Source: Palleronia pontilimi
GTDB taxonomy: Bacteria > Pseudomonadota > Alphaproteobacteria > Rhodobacterales > Rhodobacteraceae
Assembly: GCF_016412875.1 (NCBI RefSeq)
Contig: NZ_JAEKPD010000002.1
Location: forward strand, 124,001 to 188,000
Length of the DNA stretch: 64,000 nucleotides
Direction: 5' to 3'
Notes under the pieces: generated by a model
Told to the model about the DNA's origin: nothing
The model's database searches: none
Seen by the model: the letters and a program-made list of their open reading frames with translations, nothing else
Shown: piece after piece, positions 18,503 to 31,878 of the stretch
How positions within the stretch are numbered: the stretch's first letter is position 1
Layout of the letters: every line of letters begins with the position of its first letter
Program-made: the position numbers and the translations under genes

Positions 18503-19360
18503 TCAGGACGCTGCGAGCACGGACGCCGTTTGTTGGCCCAGGCCGTCGATGCCCAGGCTCACGACTTCGCCGCCCTTCAGGAACCGCGGGGGCTTCTGGC
18601 CCATGCCGACACCCGGCGGCGTGCCCGTGGAAATCACGTCCCCCGGCTGCAGGCTCATGAAACGGCTGCAATAGGCGACCAGGTGCGGCACCCGGAAGAT
18701 CAGGGTCGAGGTGTTGCCCGATTGCTGGCGCGCGCCATCGACGTCGAGCCACATTTCAAGGTTGTCCATGTCCGCCACCTCGTCGCGCGTGACGAGCCAC
18801 GGCCCGGTCGGCCCGAACGTATCGCAGCCCTTTCCCTTGTCCCAGCTGCCGCCCCGTTCCAGTTGGTATTCACGCTCGGACACGTCGTTGATGACGCAAA
18901 AGCCCGCCACGTGGTTCATTGCATCGGCCTCGTCGATATAGGCGCCCGGGTCTCCGATCACGACGCCCAGCTCGACCTCCCAGTCGGTCTTTGTCGAGCC
19001 GCGTGGGATCTGGATGGGATCGTCGGGGCCCTGCACGGACGAGGTCCACTTGTTGAAGATGATCGGCTCGTCCGGGATCGGCATCCCGGCCTCTGCGGCG
19101 TGATCGGCGTAGTTCAGGCCGATGCAGATGAACTTGCCGATGCCGCCCACGCAGGCGCCGAGCCGCAGATCCTTCTGCGGGGTGCCGTCGACCACGGGCA
19201 GGGTGCCTGGATCGAGGTCCCGGAGCGCCTGAAGGCCGTCCGAGCGGAGCGTGTCGCCGCCAATGTCGGCCACGACGTTGGAGAGGTCCCGGACCCGGCC
19301 ATCCGCATCGAGCAGGCCCGGTTTCTCGGCACCGGGGGGGCCATAGCGAAGAAGTTTCAT
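18503..19360 (-). CDS. Fumarylacetoacetate hydrolase family protein, 2,4-diketo-3-deoxy-acid hydrolase type
   Basis: 285 residues. The fold has an N-terminal cap of about 70 residues and a C-terminal FAH domain starting at GKFICIGLNYADHAAE. Metal ligands are in TDWEVELGVVIG (two Glu) and in INDVSEREYQ (Asp). STGTPPGVGMGQKPP is the C-terminal family signature. The full-length protein with its cap resembles 2,4-diketo-3-deoxy-L-fuconate hydrolase, which cleaves the diketo acid to pyruvate and lactate. The position downstream of the sugar ABC importer and the presence of a lactate-dehydrogenase-type gene in the cluster support that reading. The exact substrate is inferred. Confidence 0.82.
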   Translation of the reverse strand: MKLLRYGPPGAEKPGLLDADGRVRDLSNVVADIGGDTLRSDGLQALRDLDPGTLPVVDGTPQKDLRLGACVGGIGKFICIGLNYADHAAEAGMPIPDEPIIFNKWTSSVQGPDDPIQIPRGSTKTDWEVELGVVIGDPGAYIDEADAMNHVAGFCVINDVSEREYQLERGGSWDKGKGCDTFGPTGPWLVTRDEVADMDNLEMWLDVDGARQQSGNTSTLIFRVPHLVAYCSRFMSLQPGDVISTGTPPGVGMGQKPPRFLKGGEVVSLGIDGLGQQTASVLAAS

Positions 19361-19450: not shown

Positions 19451-19558
19451 TCAGCAGGCCACCTTCCTGCCGCCGTCGGCCAGCGCGCTTCCTGCGCGGG
19501 CAGGGTTGAGCGCCATCGGATTACCCACCCGCCCCGATCCTGCAAGGCCGAGCCGCAT
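19451..19558 (-). pseudogene. Remnant of a 6PGDH/HIBADH-type NAD-dependent dehydrogenase
   Basis: A 35-codon frame starts with an ATG that overlaps the stop of the ABC ATPase gene. It reads MRLGLAGSGRVGNPMALNPA, which resembles the NAD-binding start of 3-hydroxyisobutyrate or 6-phosphogluconate dehydrogenases (GxGxxGxPMAxNLAxAG). It then stops at 19451, and nothing dehydrogenase-like follows in the remaining 90 bp before the hydrolase start. I read it as the leftover 5' end of a gene that was deleted. A chance short frame is possible. Confidence 0.45.
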
Positions 19559-21069
19559 CACGCCGCCTGGTCGGCCTTGATCCCGGAAATGGCCTGGATC
19601 AGGTTGTCTTCCGTCACCTCGTCGGACGTGAAGGTCCGCATGATCCGGCCCGAATACATGGCAACGATCCGGTCCGAGACGTGCAGCACCTCGGGCATTT
19701 CCGAGCTGATCACCATGACGGCATAGCCTTTCGCCGCGAGCGCCCTGAGCAGCTTGTGGATCTCGGACTTGCTGCCCACGTCGATGCCGCGGGTGGGCTC
19801 GTCCACGATCAGCAGGCTCGGGTGCATGGACAGCCACTTGCCGATGACGATCTTCTGCTGGTTGCCGCCCGACAGGTTGCCGACCTGCTGGCGCCAGCTG
19901 GGCGTGCGGATGTCGAGCTGGTCGCGATACTGGTCGAAGATCGCGATCTCGGCGCCCTCGGCCACGAAAGGACCGGCTTTCAGGTCGTCGACCTGGGGCA
20001 GGGTCATGTTGTCGCGACAGTTCATCCCCAGCACCAGTCCCTGGCCCTTGCGATCCTCGGGCACTAGGCTGATGCCGCGTGTGATCGCATCGGCGGGCGA
20101 GCTGATCCGGACCTCTTGGCCGTCCAGGAAGATCTGCCCCGCGCTGGGGTCGCGCAGACCGAACAGGGTCTCAGCGATTTCGGTCCGGCCCGCCCCGACG
20201 AGGCCGTAGAAGCCCACGACCTCGCCACGCCGCACCTCGAAACTGATATCCTTGTAGAGCTTGCCGCAGCTGAGATTGCGCACTTCCAGCGCCACATCGC
20301 CGATCTCGTGGTGCGATGCGTTGCGGGTCAGGTCCAGCTTGCGGCCGATCATCAACTGGGTGACGGATTCTTCGTTGGTTTCCCGGGTGTTGACCGTGCC
20401 TTGGTACTGGCCGTCGCGCAGGACGGTGATGCGGTCGGTGATCTTGAAGATCTCTTCCATCCGGTGCGAGATATAGATGATCCCCACGCCATCGGCCTGC
20501 AGGTCCGAGATCACGTCGAAGAGCACGCTTTTCTCGGCATCGGTCAGCGACGCCGTGGGCTCGTCGAAGATCACAGCCTTGGCGTCCACCGTCAGCGCGC
20601 GGGCGATTTCCACCATCTGCTGGTTGGCGATGGACAGATCCCCCACCAGCGTGTTGGCGTCGAAGCCCACGTTCAGCTTCTTCAGGATCGCGTTGGTCTT
20701 GTCGGTCAGGGTGGTCCAGTCGACACGGCCGAAGCTTTTGCGCGGCAACTCGCCCAAGTAGATGTTCTCGGCCACGCTGAGTTCTTCGGCAAGGCTGAGT
20801 TCCTGGTGGATGAACACGATGCCCTTGGCCTTGGCCTCCAAGGGTCCGGCCATGACGACCCGGTCGTCGCCCATGTAGATCGCGCCCTCGTCGGGCTGGT
20901 GGATGCCCCCCAGCACCTTCATCAGCGTGGACTTGCCCGCCCCGTTTTCACCCATCAGGGCGTGGACTTCGCCGGGCATGACGCTGAAGGACACGCCGTC
21001 GAGCGCGCGCACGCCGGGGAAGGTTTTCACGATACCGTCGAGGCGCAGGATTGGCTTTGCGTCGGTCAT
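19558..21069 (-). CDS. Sugar ABC transporter ATP-binding protein (ribose type, two ATPase domains)
   Basis: 503 residues with two fused nucleotide-binding domains, the layout of RbsA/XylG-class ATPases. The first has Walker A GENGAGKST, a signature at LSIANQQMVEIARAL and Walker B VIFDEPTASL. The second has a degenerate Walker A (GLVGAGRTEIAE), the signature LSGGNQQKIVIGKW and Walker B LLIVDEPTRGIDVGSK. The degenerate second Walker A is normal for the class. It powers the importer made with the two neighbouring permeases and the binding protein. The start overlaps the upstream permease stop by four bases, so the genes are translationally coupled. Confidence 0.95.
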   Translation of the reverse strand: MTDAKPILRLDGIVKTFPGVRALDGVSFSVMPGEVHALMGENGAGKSTLMKVLGGIHQPDEGAIYMGDDRVVMAGPLEAKAKGIVFIHQELSLAEELSVAENIYLGELPRKSFGRVDWTTLTDKTNAILKKLNVGFDANTLVGDLSIANQQMVEIARALTVDAKAVIFDEPTASLTDAEKSVLFDVISDLQADGVGIIYISHRMEEIFKITDRITVLRDGQYQGTVNTRETNEESVTQLMIGRKLDLTRNASHHEIGDVALEVRNLSCGKLYKDISFEVRRGEVVGFYGLVGAGRTEIAETLFGLRDPSAGQIFLDGQEVRISSPADAITRGISLVPEDRKGQGLVLGMNCRDNMTLPQVDDLKAGPFVAEGAEIAIFDQYRDQLDIRTPSWRQQVGNLSGGNQQKIVIGKWLSMHPSLLIVDEPTRGIDVGSKSEIHKLLRALAAKGYAVMVISSEMPEVLHVSDRIVAMYSGRIMRTFTSDEVTEDNLIQAISGIKADQAA

Positions 21070-22067
21070 ACTTTCAGCTCCTCTTTGCCCTTCACGTTCA
21101 GCTGGCGATCCAGGAACAGCACGGCGATCAGGATCAGGCCGATCACCAGATTCACGGTCGATGTGTCGGCGCCGATATGGCCCAGCCCCTTGCGCAGCAG
21201 CTGGATCGCGATGACGCCGCCGAAGGTGCCGATAACGGACCCCGCGCCGCCGGTGATCTTGGTGCCGCCAAGGACGACGGCGGTGATAACCCATAGCTCG
21301 TAGAGCTGGCCGTCATTGGGGTTCACCGATCCGGATTCTGAGTAGAAGACGACCGCCGACAGCGCCGCCAAGAAGCCGATGATCGCGAAGTTGATCATCA
21401 TGTGCGGACCCACCCGGATGCCGGCGTTGACGGCCGCGTCGCGGTTGTCGCCGATGGCATAGGCGTTGCGGCCGTGCACGGTCCTGGTCATCAGGAACCA
21501 GACCACCCCCGTGACCGCCAGAAGGAACCATGACGCGGTGGCGAGGCCCAGGAATTCGGCCTCGGCCAGGTCGACCAGCGTCCAGTTCAGGTGGCTGGTC
21601 GGATTCTCGCCGTTGAACATGAAGACGATGCCGCGATAGCCCAGCATCGAGCCCAGCGTGACGATGAAGGCGTCGACGCCGGTCTTCCAGACGATCAGCC
21701 CGTTCAGCGCGCCAAGGGCGGTGCCCACGGTCAGCGCCAGCAGCCAGGCCACCGGGATCACCCAGTCGCCCAGGCCCGCGAAGATCGGCCAGGTCATGCT
21801 GTCCAGCAGCACGATGGCGGCGATGGCGTAGGTGGCGCCGACGCTCAGGTCGATATTGCCGTTTACCATCACGATGGTCATGCCCATCGCGATGATCCCG
21901 ATCGGCGCCGACTGCTTGAGCAGCAGCAGCATGTTTTCCCAATCCATGAAGGCCGTGTCGCTGAGCGACATGTACGACCCCGCCACGGAGAAGAAGATCA
22001 GTTCCAGAACGATGAAGCCCCAGATCGCGCCGCTTTTCAGCGCCTTGGACAGTGCACCCGGTTGCAT
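21066..22067 (-). CDS. Sugar ABC transporter permease (ribose type), second subunit
   Basis: 333 residues from ATG 22067, preceded by ACGGAGGGGAACC. About eight to ten hydrophobic segments; the family element MVNGNIDLSVGATYAIAAIV is near residues 80-100 and AVVLGGTKITGGAGSVIGT is near 265. This is the BPD_transp_2 fold of RbsC-type permeases. It sits 13 bp after the other permease gene and overlaps the ATPase start, so all three are one operon. Two different permeases suggest a heterodimeric channel. Confidence 0.93.
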   Translation of the reverse strand: MQPGALSKALKSGAIWGFIVLELIFFSVAGSYMSLSDTAFMDWENMLLLLKQSAPIGIIAMGMTIVMVNGNIDLSVGATYAIAAIVLLDSMTWPIFAGLGDWVIPVAWLLALTVGTALGALNGLIVWKTGVDAFIVTLGSMLGYRGIVFMFNGENPTSHLNWTLVDLAEAEFLGLATASWFLLAVTGVVWFLMTRTVHGRNAYAIGDNRDAAVNAGIRVGPHMMINFAIIGFLAALSAVVFYSESGSVNPNDGQLYELWVITAVVLGGTKITGGAGSVIGTFGGVIAIQLLRKGLGHIGADTSTVNLVIGLILIAVLFLDRQLNVKGKEELKV

Positions 22068-22080
22068 GGTTCCCCTCCGT

Positions 22081-23055
22081 TCAAGCGATTGGTGACATGA
22101 GCTTGCCGCGCTTGGCCGCGATATCGAGCCAGACAGCAAGGATGATGATGATCCACGTCACGACGAACTGGACGTAGAATTGCAGACCCAGAAGCAGCAG
22201 GCCGTTCTGGATGAAGCCCAGGATCAGCACGCCGATGACGGTCTTGAAGATCGTGCCCGAGCCGCCCATCAACGAGGCGCCGCCAAGGATGACGGCGGCC
22301 AGGACCTCGAGCTCCAGCCCCTGTCCCACGGTGTTTTGCGAGCCCAGCGATCGGCTGGCCTGGATCAACCCCGCGGTCGCCACGCAGGCGGACGAGATGA
22401 TGTAGCAGAAGAAGACGGTGCGCGCCCGGCGGATGCCCGAGAAGGTGGCCGCCGTGCCGTTGCCGCCCACCGCGTAGACCTTGCGCCCGAACGGCGTCTT
22501 GGACAGCACCAGTCCCAGGAATGCGGCCAGCAGCAGGAAGATCAGGATCGGCACGGGAATGCCCAGCGCCGAGCCCTGTCCGAAGACGCTGAACCAGGTG
22601 CCTTCCTTGTCGGCGATGTCCATGTTCTTGCCGCCCGAATAGGTCAGCGTCAGGCCGTGGATGGCCGATAGCATACCTAGAGTCACGATCAGCGAATTGA
22701 GCTTGAGATAGCCGACGAGAAAGCCGATCAGCGCGCCCAGCGCCAGGGTCATGGCAAACATCGCCGGGATCGCGAGGAACGGTCCGATCTTGTCGTGCAA
22801 ATCGAGCACGACGATGGTCGAGAACGACATCATCGAGCCCACCGACAGGTCAAGATTACCGCTGATGACCACGAAGGTGACGCCCAGCGCCATGACCCCC
22901 AGGATCGCCGAGGACCGAACCACGCTGAAGACGTTGTCCACGGTCAGGAACTTCGAGTTCGCGAACGTGAAGGCCACGATGAAGACCGCGAAGGCGATCA
23001 GGATCCCCTGCTTCGCCAGAACGCTGCCGATCTGTTGCTTCGAAACTGTCGCCAT
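22081..23055 (-). CDS. Sugar ABC transporter permease (ribose type), first subunit
   Basis: 324 residues from ATG 23055 with GGGAGGAAT upstream. The family signatures are VISGNLDLSVGSMMSFSTIV near residues 60-80 and AVILGGASLMGGSGTIFKTV near 250-270, in an otherwise hydrophobic chain. It is related to but distinct from the second permease. The gene follows the SDR gene by 56 bp on the minus strand. It forms the inner-membrane pore for the sugar or polyol delivered by the periplasmic binding protein. Confidence 0.93.
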   Translation of the reverse strand: MATVSKQQIGSVLAKQGILIAFAVFIVAFTFANSKFLTVDNVFSVVRSSAILGVMALGVTFVVISGNLDLSVGSMMSFSTIVVLDLHDKIGPFLAIPAMFAMTLALGALIGFLVGYLKLNSLIVTLGMLSAIHGLTLTYSGGKNMDIADKEGTWFSVFGQGSALGIPVPILIFLLLAAFLGLVLSKTPFGRKVYAVGGNGTAATFSGIRRARTVFFCYIISSACVATAGLIQASRSLGSQNTVGQGLELEVLAAVILGGASLMGGSGTIFKTVIGVLILGFIQNGLLLLGLQFYVQFVVTWIIIILAVWLDIAAKRGKLMSPIA

Positions 23056-23111
23056 AATTCCTCCCTTGGGCTTTCGGGCCGGTCGCTGGCCCTTGACCCG
23101 ATGAATGTCGT

Positions 23112-23903
23112 TCAAACCAGTGTCATGCCTCCGTCGATCATGACGATCTGGCCGGTCATGTAGTCGCTGTCCTTCGACGCAAGGAACGTCGTCGTCCCCG
23201 TGATGTCGGCGGGTTTCGCGACGCGGCCCTTCAGAATCTCGGCGCTGAATTCCTCCATCGCCTGGCCGGGACGCTCGGACGCCCCGATTTCCAGCAGGTC
23301 CTTGTCGACCTGGTCCCACATCTCGGTCGCCACCACGCCCGGCGCGAAGCCGGTCACGGTGATGTTGTGCTTGGCGAGGCCCCGGGCGCCCGATTGCGTC
23401 AGCGACACCACAGCCCATTTCGATGCGCAGTATGGGGCCACGTTGTCGAACCCCTGGCGGCTGGCGATGGACGCGGTGTTGACGATCTTGCCGCCGGTGC
23501 CCTGGTCGATCATCTGGCGCGCGGCTTCCTGCATGCCGATCATGCAGCCCAGACCGTTCACGCCCATGATGAAATTCCAGTTGTCTTCCGTCACGTCGAG
23601 AAAGTTCATGGGCTTGTTGACGCCCGCATTGTTGAACTTGACGTCGAGCTGTCCGAACGTCTCGACCGTGTGCGCGATCATGGCGCGGACGGCGTCGCGG
23701 TCGGTCACGTCGACCCGCGTCGAGGTGACGGCATCCTTGTGACCATTGCTGCGGGCCGCTTCGGCCACTTCGGCCACCTTGTCGCCGTTGATATCGGCGA
23801 AGCAGACCTTGGCGCCTTCGCTCAGCAAAGCCTCGCCGATGGCGCGGCCTATGCCCTGCGCGGCACCCGTCACGATGCAGACCCGTCCTGATACGCGTCC
23901 CAT
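23112..23903 (-). CDS. SDR family NAD(P)-dependent oxidoreductase, sorbitol-dehydrogenase-like
   Basis: 263 residues, classical SDR. The cofactor motif is TGAAQGIGRAIG. NNAG is present at FNNAGVNK. The catalytic Ser is in NTASIASRQG and the pair YCASK (Tyr, Lys) follows. APGVVATEMWDQVDKDL resembles the SmoS/polyol dehydrogenase subgroup. It is clearly paralogous to the SDR at 27031-27840 on the other side of the divergent promoter: both have NKP..F.D..EDNW, HNITV.G.APGVV, W.Q.DKDL.EIG and DSDYMTGQ. It lies between the binding-protein and permease genes, so its substrate is probably what the importer brings in. Confidence 0.88.
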   Translation of the reverse strand: MGRVSGRVCIVTGAAQGIGRAIGEALLSEGAKVCFADINGDKVAEVAEAARSNGHKDAVTSTRVDVTDRDAVRAMIAHTVETFGQLDVKFNNAGVNKPMNFLDVTEDNWNFIMGVNGLGCMIGMQEAARQMIDQGTGGKIVNTASIASRQGFDNVAPYCASKWAVVSLTQSGARGLAKHNITVTGFAPGVVATEMWDQVDKDLLEIGASERPGQAMEEFSAEILKGRVAKPADITGTTTFLASKDSDYMTGQIVMIDGGMTLV

Positions 23904-23991: not shown

Positions 23992-24957
23992 TCAGAAGAC
24001 CGGCTTGGAGAACTCGCTCATGTTCTCTTGGGTGATCTTCGGCGTGTCGAAGTAGTTCAGCTTCGGCACTTCCTTGCCTTCGAGCACGTCGATCGCGGTT
24101 TGCAGGGCGGCCTCGGCGTCATCGACCGGCGACTGGTAGATCGAGCCCCAGTAATCGCCCGCTTCCATCGCTTCGTAGCCGACCGAGAAGTTCGTCGCGC
24201 CGACGAAGATGATGCCGTCGCGGCCCGCGGCCTTGGCGGCGTTCAGCGCGCCCACGCCCATGTTGTCGTCGCCGGCATAGACGCCGTCGATGTCGTCATA
24301 CTTGACCAGGAAGGCTTCCATCACCTGCTGCGACTTCTCGCGGTTCCAGTCGCCAGGCTGGGTTTCGACCAGCGTCACGTCCGGGCAGACCTCGGGCAGG
24401 CGATCCTCGAAGCCCTTGGCGCGCTCGATCGCGGTGGTGTAGCCGGGCTGGCCGCTGATCTGCACGACACGGGCTTCGCTTTCGATGCCCATTTCCTTGA
24501 ACTTGTCGCACATGATCTCGGCCGAACGCGATCCTTGGGTGATGTTGTCGGGGCCCGAGAACGAGGCAATGAAATCCTGTCCCTGCTCGGCGATGTTCGA
24601 ATTGGTGACGATCACCGGGATGTCGGCCTGCGACGCTTTGCGGACAGCGGGGATCACGGCCTCGCCGTTGGTCGGCCAGATGATGATGGCGTCCACATCC
24701 TGCTGGATCAGGTCTTCCATCTGGGCAATCTGGCGAGCCACGTCGCCGCCCGCGTCCAGCACGACCGTCTCGACCATGTCGTTGGCCTCGGCCGCGGCAA
24801 TGAAGGCCTGTTCGTAGGTGGTCTGGTAGCTGTCGACGCCGACATTGTTCTGCGTGATGCCGATCTTCATGGTCTCGCTGTGGCTGGCGGCCATGGCGGC
24901 GCCGGCGAACATGGCGGTTGCCGCGGTGGTGGCAACAAGGGCATTGCGAAGTTTCAT
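23992..24957 (-). CDS. Periplasmic sugar-binding protein (ribose type)
   Basis: 321 residues from ATG 24957, with CCGGGAGGAAACCAG upstream. The N-terminus MKLRNALVATTAATAMFAGA ends in a Sec signal with AMAASHS cleavage. The mature part has two lobes of the Peripla_BP_4 type, with DAIIIWPTNGEAVIPAV and DGVYAGDDNMGVGALNA as ligand-hinge elements of the RbsB/xylose-binding group. It is the first gene of the minus-strand importer operon, next to the divergent control region with two palindromes. The ligand is unknown. Confidence 0.93.
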   Translation of the reverse strand: MKLRNALVATTAATAMFAGAAMAASHSETMKIGITQNNVGVDSYQTTYEQAFIAAAEANDMVETVVLDAGGDVARQIAQMEDLIQQDVDAIIIWPTNGEAVIPAVRKASQADIPVIVTNSNIAEQGQDFIASFSGPDNITQGSRSAEIMCDKFKEMGIESEARVVQISGQPGYTTAIERAKGFEDRLPEVCPDVTLVETQPGDWNREKSQQVMEAFLVKYDDIDGVYAGDDNMGVGALNAAKAAGRDGIIFVGATNFSVGYEAMEAGDYWGSIYQSPVDDAEAALQTAIDVLEGKEVPKLNYFDTPKITQENMSEFSKPVF

Positions 24958-25028
24958 CTGGTTTCCTCCCGGAACTTCTTGGTTTCTGGTCGTTCGTTGT
25001 CTCGGACGTCTCATCCGTGCGTCCGCAC

Positions 25029-25050
25029 ATCATTCCTTGAGACGAATGAT
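25029..25050. repeat. 7-bp inverted repeat in the leader of the binding-protein gene
   Basis: ATCATTC (25029-25035) and GAATGAT (25044-25050) are perfect inverted copies with an 8-nt spacer, about 70 bp upstream of the binding-protein start. It may be an operator or leader hairpin. It does not match the neighbouring ATCCA-N3-TGGAT palindromes. Confidence 0.4.
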
Positions 25051-25096
25051 CCCCGACATCTTGGCGCATCCAAACTGATCAATCTGCACGAGAAAT

Positions 25097-25130
25097 ATCC
25101 ATATTGGACAAAATAATATCCAATCTGGAT
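25097..25130. promoter_or_regulatory. Tandem palindromic operator pair in the divergent promoter
   Basis: Copy 1 is ATCCATATTGGAC (25097-25109) and copy 2 is ATCCAATCTGGAT (25118-25130). Both have the form ATCCA-N3-TGGA. The centres (25103 and 25124) are 21 bp apart, two DNA turns, which would place two dimers on the same face. They lie in the AT-rich centre of the 226-bp gap between the importer operon and the regulator gene. Binding by the adjacent regulator is inferred. Confidence 0.6.
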
Positions 25131-25183
25131 GAATCGGCGGTATCGTGGCGCTGTCAATTTGAACAATTCTTGGAGGTGCAATC

Positions 25184-27013
25184 GTGACTCGGCCGAAATC
25201 GTCCAGATCGGACAGGGCTGCGACAGCGCGGTCGGTCAGGAACCAGGAAAGAACAGCGACATCCATGAATGCAATGGCTGCACATATGGACAAGACACAT
25301 CGCTCGCCAAGCAGCGCGACCGAGATGCTTGACCTGCTGTCGTTCCTGGAAGAGTTCAGCGACGAGCTTGAAGGCTCGTTCGACCTGGTGGGTCCCAACC
25401 CGCATCTGCGGATGATGCTGCATCTTCTGCGCGGCCATGTGGAGGCGCGCGTGATCACGCCCACATCGGCCATCGGTGCCAGCCGCGTGCCCTACGCGAC
25501 AGCCAACCGGCGGCTGAAGGAAATGGTCGCCGCCGGGCTGGTCGAACAGCGCCCGCGCACCGCCAGCGGCAAGAGCTTCTCGATTCACCCCAGCGACGCG
25601 CTTTTGTCCCAGTGGACGCAGCTTTCGGGCCGCATCCGTCGGATGTGCCAGGCGCGTTTCGGCGGCGAGACGCAGATCGACGATACCAAGGATTACTACT
25701 TCGGCGGCAGCTACAGCGCGGCGCGGTCAATCCCGCCGCTGAGCGTCCTGACAGAACCGCTGCGGGTGGCCGGGGGCTTGCGCGTGCTGGCGCATGGCGA
25801 TCCGACCTTCATGGTGATGGTCAACCTGAAGCGGCAATTCGAACAGGCCATCGGCGTGCGGATCAACCAGCGCGCCTTTTCCATCGACCGGCTGCGCCAG
25901 GAAGCGTTGCGCAACGCGGAAAAGGCCGCCAGCCGCTATGACATCATCGCTGTCGATCTGCCGTGGATCGGGGAATTCGCCGAGCGCGGCGTGCTGATGC
26001 CGCTGGATCAAGTGATGGATATCGCGCGGCTGGATCCGGCCGATTTCCACACCGCAGGCTGGACCGCCGCGCATTGGGGCGGCCGGGCCTACGGCGTGCC
26101 TGCCCAGACCACGCCCGAACTGCTGTTCTATCGGCGCGACCTTTTCGCCGATGCTGGGCTGGAGCCGCCGCGCACCACGGACGACCTGTTGGTGGCTGCG
26201 AAGACGTTGCACCAGCCGCATCGCGGCCGCTACGGGATCGCCTGGAACGCCGCGCGCGGCACGGCGCTTGGCCATACGGTCCTGATGGCGATGGCCGATT
26301 TCGGCCAGCCGGTCCTGGACCTGCCGCGGATCGCGGGCGGCTTCGACGCGGCGCACCTGGCGCGCGGCGGCTACCGTCCCACCATCGACACCGAGGCCGG
26401 TCTGCAAGCCGCCGAGTTCCTGCTGGAGCTGCTGAACTATTCGCCGCCCGACATCCTGTCGATGTCCTGGTACGAACGGGTCCGCCCCTATGCGGCGGGC
26501 AAGGCCGCTATGGCCTATGGCTACACGCTGCTGGCGCCGTATTTCGAAGGCGACGACCGCTCGCCCGCTTGCGGGCAGACCGGATACTTGCCGCATCCCG
26601 CGGGTCCGGGCGGGCGCACCATCGCGCCCGTCGGCGGCTACGTGCTGGGCATCCCCGCCAACCTGCCGCCCGAACGGGTGCCTGCCGCGGTCGATGCCTT
26701 GGCGGTCTTCACGTCGCCCGAAGCGCAAAAGCTGTTCGTGCAGAACGGCAGCCGAACCAACCCGCGCTATTCCGTGGCCGCCGATCCCGAAGTGCGCCGC
26801 GCCTCGACCATCTTCGAGGCTGTGGACGAGATGTCCTGGCGCGACGAGCTGCAATTCTGGCCGCGCCCGCCGGTGCCCGAAATCGGCGGTATCGTGCAGA
26901 TCTGCGGCGAGGAATTCCACGACATGCTGCGCGGCTCCGTTTCGCCGCGACAGGCTTTGCGCAACGCCCAAGGACGGGCCGACGCGCTGATACGATCTGA
27001 CCAGACAAAGTGA
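25184..27013 (+). CDS. Winged-helix regulator fused to a family-1 solute-binding-protein domain
   Basis: 609 residues from GTG 25184, which has a strong GGAGGT Shine-Dalgarno. No signal peptide; the first 45 residues are basic and Ser-rich. Residues about 60-150 form a MarR/GntR-like winged helix (SRVPYATANRRLKEMVAAGL, then a VEQRP...GKSFSIHP wing). Residues about 185-605 look like a type-1 extracellular solute-binding fold: LRVLAHGDPTFMV, DIIAVDLPWIGEFAERG, YGVPAQTTPELLFYRRDLF, VGGYVLGIP, AVDALAVFTSPEAQK. The protein should be a cytoplasmic one-component sensor for a small ligand. It diverges from the importer operon and leads the plus-strand catabolic genes, so it probably controls both. 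The domain pairing is unusual; the ligand is unknown. Confidence 0.8.
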   Translation: MTRPKSSRSDRAATARSVRNQERTATSMNAMAAHMDKTHRSPSSATEMLDLLSFLEEFSDELEGSFDLVGPNPHLRMMLHLLRGHVEARVITPTSAIGASRVPYATANRRLKEMVAAGLVEQRPRTASGKSFSIHPSDALLSQWTQLSGRIRRMCQARFGGETQIDDTKDYYFGGSYSAARSIPPLSVLTEPLRVAGGLRVLAHGDPTFMVMVNLKRQFEQAIGVRINQRAFSIDRLRQEALRNAEKAASRYDIIAVDLPWIGEFAERGVLMPLDQVMDIARLDPADFHTAGWTAAHWGGRAYGVPAQTTPELLFYRRDLFADAGLEPPRTTDDLLVAAKTLHQPHRGRYGIAWNAARGTALGHTVLMAMADFGQPVLDLPRIAGGFDAAHLARGGYRPTIDTEAGLQAAEFLLELLNYSPPDILSMSWYERVRPYAAGKAAMAYGYTLLAPYFEGDDRSPACGQTGYLPHPAGPGGRTIAPVGGYVLGIPANLPPERVPAAVDALAVFTSPEAQKLFVQNGSRTNPRYSVAADPEVRRASTIFEAVDEMSWRDELQFWPRPPVPEIGGIVQICGEEFHDMLRGSVSPRQALRNAQGRADALIRSDQTK

Positions 27014-27030: not shown

Positions 27031-27840
27031 ATGGACCCTGATCGCCTGAAGGGAAAGAACATTCTGATCACCGGTGCCGCCCGCGGCATGGGGGCGGCGA
27101 ACGCCGAAAGCTTCGCGGCTCAGGGGGCCAACGTGTGCCTGGGCGACCTCGACGAGGCCGAGGCGCAGAAGGTCGTCGACAGGATCAACGCCGAGGGCAA
27201 CGGCAAGGCGATCGCGGCCAAGATGGACGTGACCAAGCGCGCGGACAATGCCGCCGCCGTCAAGGCCACCGTCGACGCGTTCGGTTCGATCAACGTGGGC
27301 CTGTTCAACGCGGGCCTCAACAAGCCCCGGTTCTTTATGGATATCGACGAAGACAACTGGGACATGATCATGAACGTCAACACCAAGGCCATGTGGCTGG
27401 GCATGCAGGAAACCGCCCGCCAGATGATCGCGCAGGGCCCGATGGAGGATCATCCCTACAAGCTGATCAACGTGGGCTCGATCGCGTCGCGCAAGCCGCT
27501 TGTCGATGTAACGGTCTATTGCACGTCGAAATACGGCTGCCTTGCGCTGACCCATTGCGGCGCCATCGGCCTCGCCGAGCACAACATCACCGTGAACGGC
27601 TACGCCCCCGGCGTCGTCGTCACCCCGCTCTGGGAACAGCTGGACAAGGACCTGGTCGAAATCGGCTTCAAGGAAAAGGAAGGCCAGGCTTATGACGACA
27701 TCGTGCGCGACGCGCTGCAGATCAAGCGCGTGTCCTATCCCAAGGACATCGTCGGCACCGCGTCGTTCCTTGCGTCCGACGACAGCGACTACATGACCGG
27801 CCAGATGATCCATATCGATGGCGGCTGGTGTATCCAGTAA
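27031..27840 (+). CDS. SDR family oxidoreductase, polyol-dehydrogenase-like
   Basis: 269 residues from ATG 27031 with CACGAGGAGGAAAGTCC upstream; an ATG-less extension to 27010 is not needed. The cofactor motif is TGAARGMGAANAE. The usual NNAG is FNAG here (LFNAGLNKP). The catalytic Ser is in NVGSIASRK and Tyr/Lys in YCTSK. It is a close paralogue of the SDR at 23112-23903. It follows the regulator by 17 bp and starts the plus-strand catabolic operon. It likely oxidises a polyol or sugar acid, but the exact reaction is not known. Confidence 0.86.
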   Translation: MDPDRLKGKNILITGAARGMGAANAESFAAQGANVCLGDLDEAEAQKVVDRINAEGNGKAIAAKMDVTKRADNAAAVKATVDAFGSINVGLFNAGLNKPRFFMDIDEDNWDMIMNVNTKAMWLGMQETARQMIAQGPMEDHPYKLINVGSIASRKPLVDVTVYCTSKYGCLALTHCGAIGLAEHNITVNGYAPGVVVTPLWEQLDKDLVEIGFKEKEGQAYDDIVRDALQIKRVSYPKDIVGTASFLASDDSDYMTGQMIHIDGGWCIQ

Positions 27841-27906
27841 AGGTGCCGACTTTTTCAATTTCAATCGCAAACGGGTGCCGAACCGGTGCACCCGAAGGAG
27901 GACCCC

Positions 27907-29205
27907 ATGTCTCGCGCACTCATGCCCAACCTGCTGACACCGCAGGATCTTGAACCGAACTGGCGCTGGGAGGGCCGCTTGCCCGCGTCCGGCCACATGT
28001 CGGTGGATTTCGAACGCCGCATCGACCACGACCGGCTGCGCCGCTACCGGCTGGCGCGGACCCGCCAGGCCCTGCAGGCGTCCAACGCAGGCACGCTGCT
28101 GCTGTTCGACGTGAACAACATCCGCTACGTCAGCGCCACCAAGATCGGCGAATGGGAGCGGGACAAGATGTGCCGCTTCTGCCTGCTGACGGGTGACGAC
28201 AGCCCCTATGTTTGGGACTTCGGCTCGGCCGCGATGCACCACAAGAAGTTCTCGGACTGGCTCGAGCCCGAGCACTGCCTGGCCGGCGTGGTCGGCATGC
28301 GCGGCACCATTCCGCCCGAGTTCGGCCTGATGAAGAAATACGCCCACCAGATCGCGGGCCTGATCCGCGACGCGGGCATGGGCGATATGCCGGTGGGCGT
28401 GGATTACGCCGAAACGGCGATGTTCCACGCGCTCAAGGAAGAGGGCCTGAACATCGTCGACGGCCAGCAGATCATGCTGGCGGCGCGCGAGATCAAGAAC
28501 TGGGACGAGATCCAGCTGCTGACCCAGGCGGCCAGCATGGTCGATGGCGTCTACCACATGATCTACGAAGAGCTGAAGCCGGGCGTGCGCGAGAACGACA
28601 TCGTCGCGCTCAGCAACAAGATGCTTTACGAGATGGGCTCGGACGACGTGGAGGCGATCAACGCCATCTCGGGCGAGCGGTGCAACCCGCATCCGCACAA
28701 CTTCACCGACCGCTATTTCCGCCCCGGCGACCAGGCGTTCTTCGACATCTTGCAAAGCTACCAGGGGTACCGGACCTGCTATTACCGGACCTTCAACATC
28801 GGCCGGGCGACCAGCGGGCAGAACGACGCCTACGTGAAGGCGCGCGAATGGATCGACGCGTCCATCGACCTGATCCGCCCGGGCGTTTCCACCGACACGG
28901 TGGCGCAGGCCTGGCCCAAGGCCGAAGAATTCGGCTTTCCCGACGAAGACAGTGCCTTCGGCCTGCAATTCGGCCACGGGCTGGGCCTGGCCTTGCACGA
29001 ACGGCCCATCATCAGCCGCGCCGTGTCGCTGGATCACCCGATGGAGATCAAGACCGGAATGGTCTTCGCGCTGGAAACCTACTGCCCGGCCAGCGACGGC
29101 TATTCGGCCGCGCGGATCGAGGAAGAGGTGGTCGTCACCGAAACGGGATGCGAGGTCATCAGCCTGTTCCCGGCCGAAGAACTGCCCATCGCGAACCGGT
29201 ACTGA
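27907..29205 (+). CDS. M24 (creatinase/aminopeptidase P) family protein with altered metal site
   Basis: 432 residues from ATG 27907 with GAAGGAGGACCCC upstream. A creatinase-type N-terminal domain (about 1-180) precedes the pita-bread domain (about 195-425). Four of five metal positions are present: Asp in GDQAFFDI, His in QFGHGLGLALHE, Glu in VFALETYCP and Glu in RIEEEVVV. The second Asp of the usual D-x10-D pair is Cys (GYRTCYYRTF in place of GYxSDITRTF). It may bind metal differently or act as a hydrolase or lyase like creatinase or DddP. It sits among sugar-type dehydrogenases with no peptide transporter, so a peptidase role is doubtful. Confidence 0.82.
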   Translation: MSRALMPNLLTPQDLEPNWRWEGRLPASGHMSVDFERRIDHDRLRRYRLARTRQALQASNAGTLLLFDVNNIRYVSATKIGEWERDKMCRFCLLTGDDSPYVWDFGSAAMHHKKFSDWLEPEHCLAGVVGMRGTIPPEFGLMKKYAHQIAGLIRDAGMGDMPVGVDYAETAMFHALKEEGLNIVDGQQIMLAAREIKNWDEIQLLTQAASMVDGVYHMIYEELKPGVRENDIVALSNKMLYEMGSDDVEAINAISGERCNPHPHNFTDRYFRPGDQAFFDILQSYQGYRTCYYRTFNIGRATSGQNDAYVKAREWIDASIDLIRPGVSTDTVAQAWPKAEEFGFPDEDSAFGLQFGHGLGLALHERPIISRAVSLDHPMEIKTGMVFALETYCPASDGYSAARIEEEVVVTETGCEVISLFPAEELPIANRY

Positions 29206-29208
29206 GCG

Positions 29209-29973
29209 ATGGCCAATCCGTTCGACCTGACGGGCCGCAAGGCGCTGGTCACCGGCGGGGCCACCGGCATCGGCGAGGGCATTGCCCTCGGCCTTGCCGC
29301 CGCCGGGGCCGACGTGGCGCTGACCTATCGCAGCCACCAGCCCGACGACACGCTGAAGGCCATCGAGGCGCATGGCGTGAAGGCCGCCGCCGTGCGGGCC
29401 GATTTCGACGGCATGGATGCCGCGCAGGCCGACGAGGTGGTAAGCTTCGCCTCGGACGCGCTGGGCGGGCTCGATATCCTGGTCAACAACGCGGGCATCA
29501 TCCACCGGGGCGACTCGACCGAGACGGAGTTCGAGGACTGGCGCCGCGTGCTGGCCGTCAACCTGGATTCCGTCTGGCTGCTGTCGCAAGCCGCCGGTCG
29601 CCGGATGGTGGCCCAGGGCAGCGGCAAGATCATCACGGTGTCGTCGGTGCTGGGCTCGCAAGGGGGGCTGTACGTGCCCGCCTACGCGTCCAGCAAGCAC
29701 GCCGCGATCGGGCTGACCCGTGCCTTGTGCAACGAATGGGCGTCGAAGGGCGTGAATGTGAACGCCATCGCGCCTGGCTATACCGCAACCGACAACACGC
29801 AGGCGTTGCGCGACGATCCCGACCGCTCGGCGGCCTTGCTGGACCGCATTCCGGCGGGTCGTTTCGCCGAGCCGTCCGAGATCGCCGGCGCCGCCGTTTT
29901 CCTGGCCTCCGACGCAGCCGCCTATTGCCATGGCAGCGTCGTGACCGTGGATGGCGGCTGGCTTGTACGTTGA
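29209..29973 (+). CDS. SDR family oxidoreductase, KduD-like (2-deoxy-D-gluconate 3-dehydrogenase type)
   Basis: 254 residues. NPFDLTGRKALVTGGATGIG at the start is typical of KduD-like enzymes acting on ketodeoxy sugar acids. NNAG is in LVNNAGIIH, the catalytic Ser in TVSSVLGSQGG and Tyr/Lys in YASSK. GAAVFLASDAAAYCHGSVV is the C-terminal family pattern. It starts three bases after the M24 gene stop and is followed 13 bp later by another SDR, so the genes form one operon. Its substrate is likely a sugar acid or keto sugar acid, by homology only. Confidence 0.87.
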   Translation: MANPFDLTGRKALVTGGATGIGEGIALGLAAAGADVALTYRSHQPDDTLKAIEAHGVKAAAVRADFDGMDAAQADEVVSFASDALGGLDILVNNAGIIHRGDSTETEFEDWRRVLAVNLDSVWLLSQAAGRRMVAQGSGKIITVSSVLGSQGGLYVPAYASSKHAAIGLTRALCNEWASKGVNVNAIAPGYTATDNTQALRDDPDRSAALLDRIPAGRFAEPSEIAGAAVFLASDAAAYCHGSVVTVDGGWLVR

Positions 29974-29986
29974 GAGAGGACAGCAG

Positions 29987-30730
29987 ATGGAACAGACATT
30001 GCAGGGAAAGACGGCGCTGGTGACCGCCGCGGGGGCGGGCATCGGCCGCGCCTCGGCCGAGGCACTGGCCGCGCGCGGGGCCAGCGTGATCGCCACCGAC
30101 ATCGACGGCGCGGCGATCGAGGATCTGGCATCCACCACCGAGAATATCACCGCCCGCAAGCTCGACGTGATGGATGCCGACGCCGTGTCGGCGCTGGTCG
30201 CCGAGGTGTCGCCGGTGCAGATCCTTGTGAACTGCGCGGGCTGGGTGCACAGCGGCAGCATCCTGGACTGCGACGAAGCCGCCTGGGACCGGTCGTTCGA
30301 TCTGAATGCCAAGGCGATGTATCGCGTCACCAAGGCGGTGCTGCCCGGCATGTTGAAGACCGGCTCGGGCTCGATCGTCAATATCGCGTCGATCGTCTCG
30401 AGCCTGAAGGGCGCACCGAACCGTTTTGCCTATGGCGCGTCCAAGGCCGCGATCATCGGCATGACCAAAGCCATTGCCGCCGATTTCGTCAAGGACGGCG
30501 TCCGCTGCAACGCGATCTGCCCTGGCACCGTAGAAAGCCCGTCGCTGAAGGACCGGCTGGCGGCCACCGGCGACTACGAAAAGGCCCACGCCGAGTTCAC
30601 CGCGCGCCAGCCCATGGGCCGCCTGGGCAAGCCCGAGGAGATCGCCGAGATGGTGTGCTACCTGGCGGGCGACCTGTCGGCCTTCACCACGGGCCAGGCG
30701 TTCGCCATCGACGGCGGGTGGTCGACCTGA
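29987..30730 (+). CDS. SDR family oxidoreductase, BDH2 / 2-keto-3-deoxy-L-fuconate dehydrogenase-like
   Basis: 247 residues from ATG 29987 with GAGAGGACAGCAG upstream. The sequence parallels the BDH2 / 2-keto-3-deoxy-L-fuconate dehydrogenase group: VIATDIDGAAIEDL, ITARKLDVMD, LVNCAGWVHSGSILDC, IASIVSSLKGAPNRFAYGAS, and CPGTVESPSLKDRL. Catalytic Ser, Tyr (FAYGASK) and Lys are present. In the L-fucose route this enzyme makes the 2,4-diketo acid cleaved by the FAH hydrolase, and this cluster contains such a hydrolase at 18503-19360. Its stop overlaps the next start by one base (TGATG). Confidence 0.88.
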   Translation: MEQTLQGKTALVTAAGAGIGRASAEALAARGASVIATDIDGAAIEDLASTTENITARKLDVMDADAVSALVAEVSPVQILVNCAGWVHSGSILDCDEAAWDRSFDLNAKAMYRVTKAVLPGMLKTGSGSIVNIASIVSSLKGAPNRFAYGASKAAIIGMTKAIAADFVKDGVRCNAICPGTVESPSLKDRLAATGDYEKAHAEFTARQPMGRLGKPEEIAEMVCYLAGDLSAFTTGQAFAIDGGWST

Positions 30731-31878
30731 TGCGGCTGGACCGTGCGGCTTCCATCGGCGACCTCAGGGCCATGGCCCAGCGTCGGATCCCCCGCTTCGC
30801 CTTCGATCTGGTCGATGGCGGGGCGGAATCCGAGCGCAACATGCGCCGCAACGTCGAAGCCTTCGAAGAGGTCGAGCTGACGCCGCGCTACATGACGGAT
30901 GTGGGCCAAATCGACATGCGCGCCGAGATCTTCGGCCAGACCTTCGACGTGCCCTTCGGCATGGCGCCCATCGGGATGTTGAACGCCTTTTGGCCCGGGG
31001 CCGACCTGATCCTTGCGCGGCTTTGCAAGCGCGAAAACATTCCTTACGTGGCCAGCTCCGCCGCCTCGACGACACTGGAACAGCTGGCCGAGGCCGCCGA
31101 CGGCAATGGCTGGTTCCAGCTCTACGTGTCGGGCGATCCGGACGTGACCGCCGGGCTGGTCGACCGGGCCGAGGCGGCGGGATACCCGGTGATGATGGTC
31201 ACCGCCGACGTGCCCGCCGCGGGCAAGCGCGACCGCGACATCCGCAACCAGCTGAGCGTGCCCTTCAAGATCACGCCCGAAATCCTGGTCCAACTGGCGC
31301 TGCATCCACGCTGGTCGATGGAAAGCCTGGCGCAGGGTAAGCCCAACATCGCCAACTATGCCGATCTGCTGAAGGCGGCGACGTCCTATGCCGACGTGCA
31401 GAAGACGCTGATTACGCCCAGCTTCACCTGGGACGACCTGGAACGCCTGCGCGAGCGCTGGAAGGGCAAGCTGGTGGTCAAGGGCATCCTGCACCCCGCG
31501 GACGCCGTGCGATGCGCCGAACTGGGATGCGATGGGATCATCGTGTCGAACCATGGCGGTCGGCAGGTCGCTTTCGGCCCGCCGACGGTCGAGGTCTTGC
31601 CGCGCGTCGCCGAGGCGCTGAAGGGCCGGATCAAGATCATGCTGGACAGCGGCGTGCGCCGTGGCGCCGATGTCCTGCGCGCCAAGGCGCTGGGCGCGGA
31701 CTTCACCTTTGCGGGCCGCGCGCTGGCCTTCGGTGTCGGGGCCGGTGGCGCCGCGGGTGCGCAGCGCGCCATGGAAATCCTGAAGCTGGAGCTGGAGCGG
31801 GCGCTGGGCCAGCTCGGCGTGTCGTCCTACGGGGATGTCGGGGCGTCCGAATTGACCGTGCAACCCACGCGGGGGTGA
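30730..31878 (+). CDS. FMN-dependent alpha-hydroxy-acid dehydrogenase (LldD family)
   Basis: 382 residues from ATG 30730, overlapping the SDR stop. It is a full-length (S)-2-hydroxyacid oxidase/dehydrogenase TIM barrel: GMAPIGMLNAFWP, GWFQLYVSGDPDV, VTADVPAAGKRDRDIRN, the active-site His and Arg in VSNHGGRQV, and LDSGVRRGADVLRAKALGAD near the end. It oxidises a 2-hydroxyacid such as L-lactate at the inner membrane face, feeding electrons to the respiratory chain. The residue after HGGRQ differs from the usual LD(G/Y) (here VAFG). As last gene of the cluster it could remove the lactate made by the diketo-acid hydrolase. Confidence 0.85.
   Translation: MRLDRAASIGDLRAMAQRRIPRFAFDLVDGGAESERNMRRNVEAFEEVELTPRYMTDVGQIDMRAEIFGQTFDVPFGMAPIGMLNAFWPGADLILARLCKRENIPYVASSAASTTLEQLAEAADGNGWFQLYVSGDPDVTAGLVDRAEAAGYPVMMVTADVPAAGKRDRDIRNQLSVPFKITPEILVQLALHPRWSMESLAQGKPNIANYADLLKAATSYADVQKTLITPSFTWDDLERLRERWKGKLVVKGILHPADAVRCAELGCDGIIVSNHGGRQVAFGPPTVEVLPRVAEALKGRIKIMLDSGVRRGADVLRAKALGADFTFAGRALAFGVGAGGAAGAQRAMEILKLELERALGQLGVSSYGDVGASELTVQPTRG

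Follow-up and report, generated by a model that had tools for sequence, protein, structure and literature searches.

The gene at positions 25184-27013 (plus strand) of the window, by which we mean the whole 64,000-nucleotide stretch of Palleronia pontilimi DNA analysed, encodes a MarR-like winged helix (wHTH) fused to a complete family-1 (maltose-type) solute-binding protein (SBP), without signal peptide. Databases label such a gene as coding for an exported sugar-binding protein; very probably it is instead a switch that remains in the cell, with a DNA-binding head and a borrowed sugar-binding sensor, and governs the adjacent nutrient-uptake genes in many marine bacteria. We regard it as highly likely that the fusion protein regulates the divergent promoter ahead of it, where it would bind a predicted operator, and as likely that it stays in the cytoplasm as a one-component regulator which senses a ligand and controls, probably by repression, both operons served by that promoter. 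A single open frame of 609 codons (609 aa) runs from GTG 25184 to a stop ending at 27013, with an alternative ATG at codon 28, and the Shine-Dalgarno sequence noted earlier in front of the GTG is present as GGAGG at 25172-25176 (plus strand). The preliminary description had placed a winged helix at residues ~60-150 and a family-1 SBP domain at ~185-605; both domains were recovered by AF2 modelling and Foldseek, and the second also by Pfam, with boundaries now set at residues about 46-160 (25319-25663) and 199-605 (25778-26998), respectively. The linker between them (residues 161-198, 25664-25777) carries a DYYFGGSY-like motif conserved in the alignments. The full-length AF2 model, built on an alignment of 80 sequences, reached a mean pLDDT of 70.4 and a pTM of 0.62, with low pLDDT at the protein start and in the linker.

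The assignment of the C-terminal part is straightforward. It matches SBP_bac_1 (PF01547) over residues 219-516 with an E of 5.4e-29 and 102.6 bits against a cut-off of 26, and SBP_bac_8 with an E of 6.1e-25, the two models together spanning residues 217-541. In a phmmer search of PDB sequences the best match was 5iai, named as a sugar ABC transporter protein (E 1.2e-27, residues 199-601), followed by the trehalose/maltose-binding protein 1eu8, and both entries reappeared as Foldseek neighbours of the full AF2 model (5iai with E 1.5e-27; TM 0.86 when normalised to target length, 0.58 to query length). Within this part of the model many blocks have pLDDT values of 83-96 and others of 53-79, while residues 521-538 stay under 50. 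Eleven residues common to the fusion and 5iai (D206, P207, D258, W261, Y316, R317, N355, W429, R432, G484 and G485) are identical in all 80 rows of an alignment of the best 80 of 547 relatives (alignment A3, from which L061 was left out, its frame stopping near the C-terminus; A4 keeps 77 of these 80 rows, without two identical heads and L097). In the same rows, mean column identity is 0.86 in the SBP domain and 0.74 in the head, and this better conservation, together with the invariant 5iai-shared residues, is what would be expected if a solute were still bound. Like the family-1 SBPs 5iai, 1eu8, 4rya and L043 (the last an exported protein in genome G027), the fusion contains a whole SBP domain; unlike them, it carries a DNA-binding head and no signal peptide.

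The head is less readily classified. As an N-terminal piece it stays below the Pfam cut-offs, with only sub-threshold HTH matches at residues 99-126 (MarR_2, HTH_20 and TrmB), and the MarR_2 score of 17.1 bits against 27 leaves it outside the MarR family by the Pfam MarR/MarR_2 cut-off; in the head alignment, 12 of 14 members touch MarR_2 at E ≤ 0.5, the best E being 0.00064. Modelled poorly in the full-length run (block pLDDT 47-64), the head folded alone gave a confident topology, with a mean pLDDT of 82.4 and core blocks of 94-96. Its secondary-structure order, H-H-H-H-E-E-H, matches that of MarR proteins, with a putative recognition helix at residues 104-116 and wing strands at 120-124 and 132-136. 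Nine PDB matches were returned by Foldseek at E ≤ 0.001 (best E 1.6e-4), comprising PefR (five chains), MexR, HpaR, BpsR and a Silicibacter MarR protein; all of these we take to be MarR family members, in one case by title. The predicted structure therefore places the head in the MarR fold, though TM values are only about 0.5 (about 0.46-0.55 across the nine) and the superpositions have large rmsd, mostly 7-12 Å for the best matches. MarR proteins are single-domain regulators that bind their ligand within that domain. The fusion shares with them the head topology, the best Foldseek matches and a palindromic operator, and differs in a head that falls below the Pfam cut-offs and in the 400-residue SBP attached to it. 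When a profile of the head was run against 385 genomes of the class, 38 had a match at E ≤ 0.001, the fusions appearing at E < 1e-30 and the others more weakly. Among the frames read at 22 inspected weaker loci were receiver-wHTH response regulators and short lone wHTH proteins. The former (L134, L140, L144 and L147, all from Alphaproteobacteria) contain a related winged helix, with head-profile E values of 9e-9 to 1e-12, placed behind a phosphoreceiver (Response_reg) and not an SBP. In Pfam this HTH stays below every MarR cut-off, and a separate family may be warranted for it.

The wHTH-SBP architecture is a widespread family. In a whole-protein search of 100 genomes (the own genome and relatives), 61 had some match, mostly to plain SBPs, and besides the window's own protein 14 matches in 12 of the 100 genomes spanned head and SBP; together with L043, which matches the SBP part only (42% identical), they make up 15 places (L031-L045). 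A scan of a larger genome collection returned 547 relatives of any kind, and the best 80 of these, at 69-80% identity, all match both parts of the protein. Outside Rhodobacteraceae and Roseobacteraceae, these best 80 include Stappia, Roseibium, Hoeflea, Chelativorans, Zhengella and Roseitalea. Among 295 genomes of the family to which the window belongs, 51 match the head profile at E ≤ 1e-12 (own included, and counting the partial or cut frames of G527 and G553), with up to three copies, as do 6 of 398 genomes of the phylum (own included), of which G806 lies outside the class. The combination proposed from the first reading of the sequence, a winged helix and a cytoplasmic family-1 SBP in one protein, is supported by these searches, which also show that it is no one-off.

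Database labels tell another story, that of an ordinary exported SBP whose N-terminus has been misread. Among plasmid records, 34 of 760 matches cover at least 80% of the query, and the 30 plasmid matches listed include 25 under the name 'extracellular solute-binding protein' and one under 'periplasmic component'. Against these names stand the conservation of the wHTH in frame in every one of the 80 loci mentioned above and the leader of the 25184-27013 frame, in which, in agreement with the preliminary description, no signal-peptide-like segment is visible by sequence reading. What a real leader looks like is illustrated by the exported relative L043, whose maximum 15-residue hydropathy is 1.97, compared with a median of 0.99 for leader plus head in the best 80 of 547 loci; since the highest fusion value is 1.83, the hydropathy number alone does not fully separate the fusions from L043. 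Moreover, ten neighbours were scanned, and both permeases among them are of the ribose type (BPD_transp_2), not of family 1. We consider an exported SBP with a wrongly assigned start extremely improbable, and rejected it because the frame has no leader and the wHTH is conserved within it.

A reason to believe that the fusion protein binds DNA comes from the paired, conserved predicted operator in the divergent promoter. There, the palindrome TATCCA-N3-TGGATA occurs twice, as TATCCATATTGGACA at 25096-25110 and TATCCAATCTGGATG at 25117-25131, each agreeing with 11 of the 12 consensus positions and lying exactly 21 bp apart, with centres about 81 and 60 bp before GTG 25184. A possible third operator, CGTCCAGATCGGACA (8/12), is found inside the start of the ORF at 25200-25214, 83 bp from operator 2. 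For comparison, 96 stretches were taken (the window, 80 loci and 15 genome stretches), 89 of which contain both genes, and 83 promoters remained once five duplicates and the empty L041 region had been removed. All 83 have a site of at least 9/12, against 13% of 4150 first-order shuffles; 79 have one of at least 10/12, against 1.5% of the shuffles; and a pair at exactly 21 bp occurs in 69 of the 83, against none of the 4150 shuffles. Being related by descent and not independent, with some near-identical ones remaining, these promoters provide numbers that measure conservation and not independent events. Within them, spacer letters and promoter lengths vary while the half-sites and the 21-bp spacing stay. 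Of the 69 promoters with the pair, 48 have a third site (≥8/12) 80-87 bp further downstream. As no shuffle had a pair, the shuffles are mute on this third site, for which the proper control is the set of fourteen other 8-bp windows, where 0 to 11 of 69 (or 68) promoters had a further site. The third palindrome of the window overlaps the first codons of the regulator, whose N-terminal residues may be shaped by the operator and not by protein function.

Operators 1 and 2 also draw on a separate comparison of 84 promoter regions, from which one empty region and four duplicate loci had been taken out. In a further count, 36 kb of promoter contained 68 copies of TCCAN3TGGA and the remaining 1.36 Mb of locus DNA 16; for spaced double sites the figures are 28 and none. 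Across the 3.72 Mb of the window's genome, only the promoter at 25096-25131 matches the double site exactly, once, and the next best places have 2 mismatches; allowing up to 3 mismatches gave 30 places, which look like coding DNA, compared with 4 when the reversed pattern served as control. Single sites with flanking W are near background (eight places against four for the reversed control). Distant fusions are accompanied by palindromes of their own, namely TATCCGATCTGGATA in L041, TATTCAAATTGAATA or TATTCAATTTGAATA in L130/L045, L131 and L132 (three genomes), where they lie almost equally far ahead of the head, and TGTCCGGAGTGGACA in L044. In L039 the fusion gene sits in the middle of an operon, and a pair 20 bp apart (10/12 each) is found at the operon's own promoter. 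Judging from these sequences, the palindrome frame appears to go with the fusion protein, distant members included. At other loci the sites are weak (9/12 at best in L042 and L166, 9/12 in L040 and 8/12 in L133), L165 has a single site of 10/12 downstream of the gene, and site scans returned no convincing pair near L133, L165, L166, L042 or L040.

The promoter lies between two operons. On the minus strand, a divergent importer operon begins with an exported binding protein of the ribose type (23992-24957; its start was inferred at an internal ATG before the signal peptide, the mechanical ORF beginning at 25014) and continues through 19558-23903 with SDR1 (23112-23903), two BPD_transp_2 permeases (22081-23049 and 21066-22064) and an ATPase (19558-21222), after which comes a gene (18503-19360) that we presume from its sequence to be FAH-like. 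On the plus strand, the regulator is followed at 27031-31878 by SDR2, an M24 hydrolase, SDR3 (KduD-like), SDR4 and an FMN-dependent dehydrogenase. The importer binding protein matches Peripla_BP_4 with an E of 1.1e-54, whereas the sensor is an SBP_bac_1 domain; the earlier remark that the adjacent importer uses a different, ribose-type binding protein therefore holds, and a sensor copied from this importer was rejected, as had been suspected. In the best 80 of 547 loci the ribose-type SBP gene lies divergently beside the fusion in 79 (the exception, L101, is at a contig end), SDR2 is next downstream in 78 (L105 and L123 are at contig ends) and M24 is downstream on the same strand in 74, being on the other side in L081 and missed elsewhere mostly on short contigs; the FMN dehydrogenase is present in 29. 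In Phaeobacter (L164:19053-26055) a 2-oxo-acid-dehydrogenase set with an aldehyde dehydrogenase replaces the last genes, from which the core emerges as importer, SDR1, SDR2 and M24, with exchangeable lower pathways; in the window the exchangeable part corresponds to SDR3, SDR4 and the FMN dehydrogenase (29209-31878), plus the FAH-like gene. Distant fusions sit in other sugar-type operons, with other enzymes and importers. The nearest NCBIfam model of the M24 hydrolase (27904-29202) is that of the DMSP lyase DddP, with 115.6 bits where the cut-off asks for 600, and the protein also matches M24 peptidase entries in the PDB; both matches are too weak for a substrate to be named, and it is perhaps a non-peptidase M24 enzyme in a sugar-type operon.

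Taken together, the data suggest how the switch may operate. The MarR-like winged helix would bind the predicted operator as a dimer, probably with a pair of dimers on the two palindromes; an arrangement with one dimer on each palindrome and two helical turns between the dimers agrees with the 21-bp spacing. From this shared promoter the importer operon and the regulator-SDR2-M24 operon would be controlled. In the cytoplasm, the SBP domain, which may go back to a single capture of an exported binding protein with loss of the signal peptide, would close on a small molecule, either the solute brought in by import or an early product, and the linker would relay the hinge motion to the head. Sensing through the SBP domain seems to us probable. 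The domain might conversely serve as a dimerisation or docking module, contacting for instance the inner face of the importer, and no longer sense a free solute, since the importer uses another type of binding protein and a ligand match to it is not guaranteed. The stronger conservation of the SBP domain than of the head, the invariance of the residues shared with 5iai and the association of distant fusions with other enzymes and importers all argue against such a module, which we deem unlikely. As to the ligand that would be sensed, we offer a polyol-like compound as a tentative guess: 4rya, among the closer PDB relatives, is named as a sorbitol-binding protein, and the best NCBIfam models of SDR1 and SDR2, all below their cut-offs, include acetoin reductase and L-iditol 2-dehydrogenase.

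The sign of regulation calls for more caution. Both operons, the regulator's own included, would most likely be repressed until the ligand binds, a reading that we favour with some reserve on the basis of the head type, since MarR-type heads are mostly repressors, and of the third site just inside the gene, whose position resembles roadblock or looping repression; neither point is decisive. No sigma-70-like promoter was found by scanning 24950-25300, so that the sign is not readable from the operator position. The same protein, acting on the same predicted operators, might instead be a ligand-dependent activator with autorepression at most, to which we give a lesser but substantial weight. The upstream position of the operator pair is compatible with activation, and what keeps this alternative alive is that the closest described analogues activate their targets: according to PMC13060122, SgrR represses itself, the first paper's title calling it an activator, and DsvR of Vibrio cholerae activates its target promoter.

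With SgrR of E. coli and DsvR, the fusion shares a one-component layout of N-terminal HTH and C-terminal solute-binding domain, but its building blocks are different, SgrR consisting of SgrR_N plus SBP_bac_5 and the fusion of a MarR-like head plus SBP_bac_1. SgrR_N (PF12793) is absent from the fusion up to an E of 1, whereas E. coli SgrR scores 147.8 bits, and none was found in the window's genome; no similarity between SgrR and the fusion was detected by BLAST or HHalign (HHalign probability 0.1%), nor does the fusion have an SBP_bac_5 domain. Membership of the SgrR family was accordingly rejected, and the fusion reads, on these sequence comparisons, as an independent invention of the SgrR-like layout. 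Among other regulators, LysR effector domains and LacI sensors have binding-protein-like folds, and Btr of Bacillus joins AraC to a binding-protein domain. The fusion resembles the LacI and LysR families in this respect and differs in having as its sensor a true SBP_bac_1 member; a Pfam scan up to an E of 1 found no LacI, Peripla_BP or LysR model in it. The earlier view that a maltose-like fold joined to a winged helix is unusual is therefore only partly upheld: a true SBP_bac_1 domain in this position is unusual, while type-II binding folds are not rare in regulators, given the LysR effector domains and SgrR. By title, no openly licensed paper on such HTH and SBP_bac_1 fusions was found, an absence that weighs little.

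When 44 SBP domains were placed in a tree, the 29 fusion domains all fell on one side of one branch, with the exported L043 as the next branch beside them, an arrangement that fits one capture of an exported SBP. The uniting branch has a support of 93/79, below the starred level, and recurs in 92% of 200 bootstrap trees; with only 15 plain SBPs in the tree, the fusion SBP domains thus appear, with moderate support, to form one clade. L043 (8746-10095) is an exported family-1 SBP with a typical leader, 42% identical to the sensor domain, and adjoins permease-like and ATPase-like genes; close by are two genes of oxidoreductase type, all of these names being read from sequence. What L043 binds would be a clue to the ancestral ligand of the regulator. 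More broadly, we see an even chance that a single captured, once exported SBP gave rise to a whole family of cytoplasmic regulators in Proteobacteria, chiefly in Alphaproteobacteria. These would act as dimers of dimers on operators separated by two helical turns, the MarR head being switched when a full transport-type SBP closes like a Venus flytrap. The family would then have spread to different catabolic operons, with up to three copies per genome and each member sensing its own solute independently of the importer SBP, and would lie hidden in databases under the name 'extracellular solute-binding protein'.

With these findings, genes that carry transport-protein annotations become probable transcription regulators whose sensor fold is well understood and whose operator is predicted; for this family, present in many marine roseobacters, both regulons and ligands can now be tested directly. 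Beside SgrR, the family would be an independent case of a transport SBP recruited into a transcription factor, and it would offer a natural model for the coupling of flytrap closure to DNA binding, useful for biosensors.
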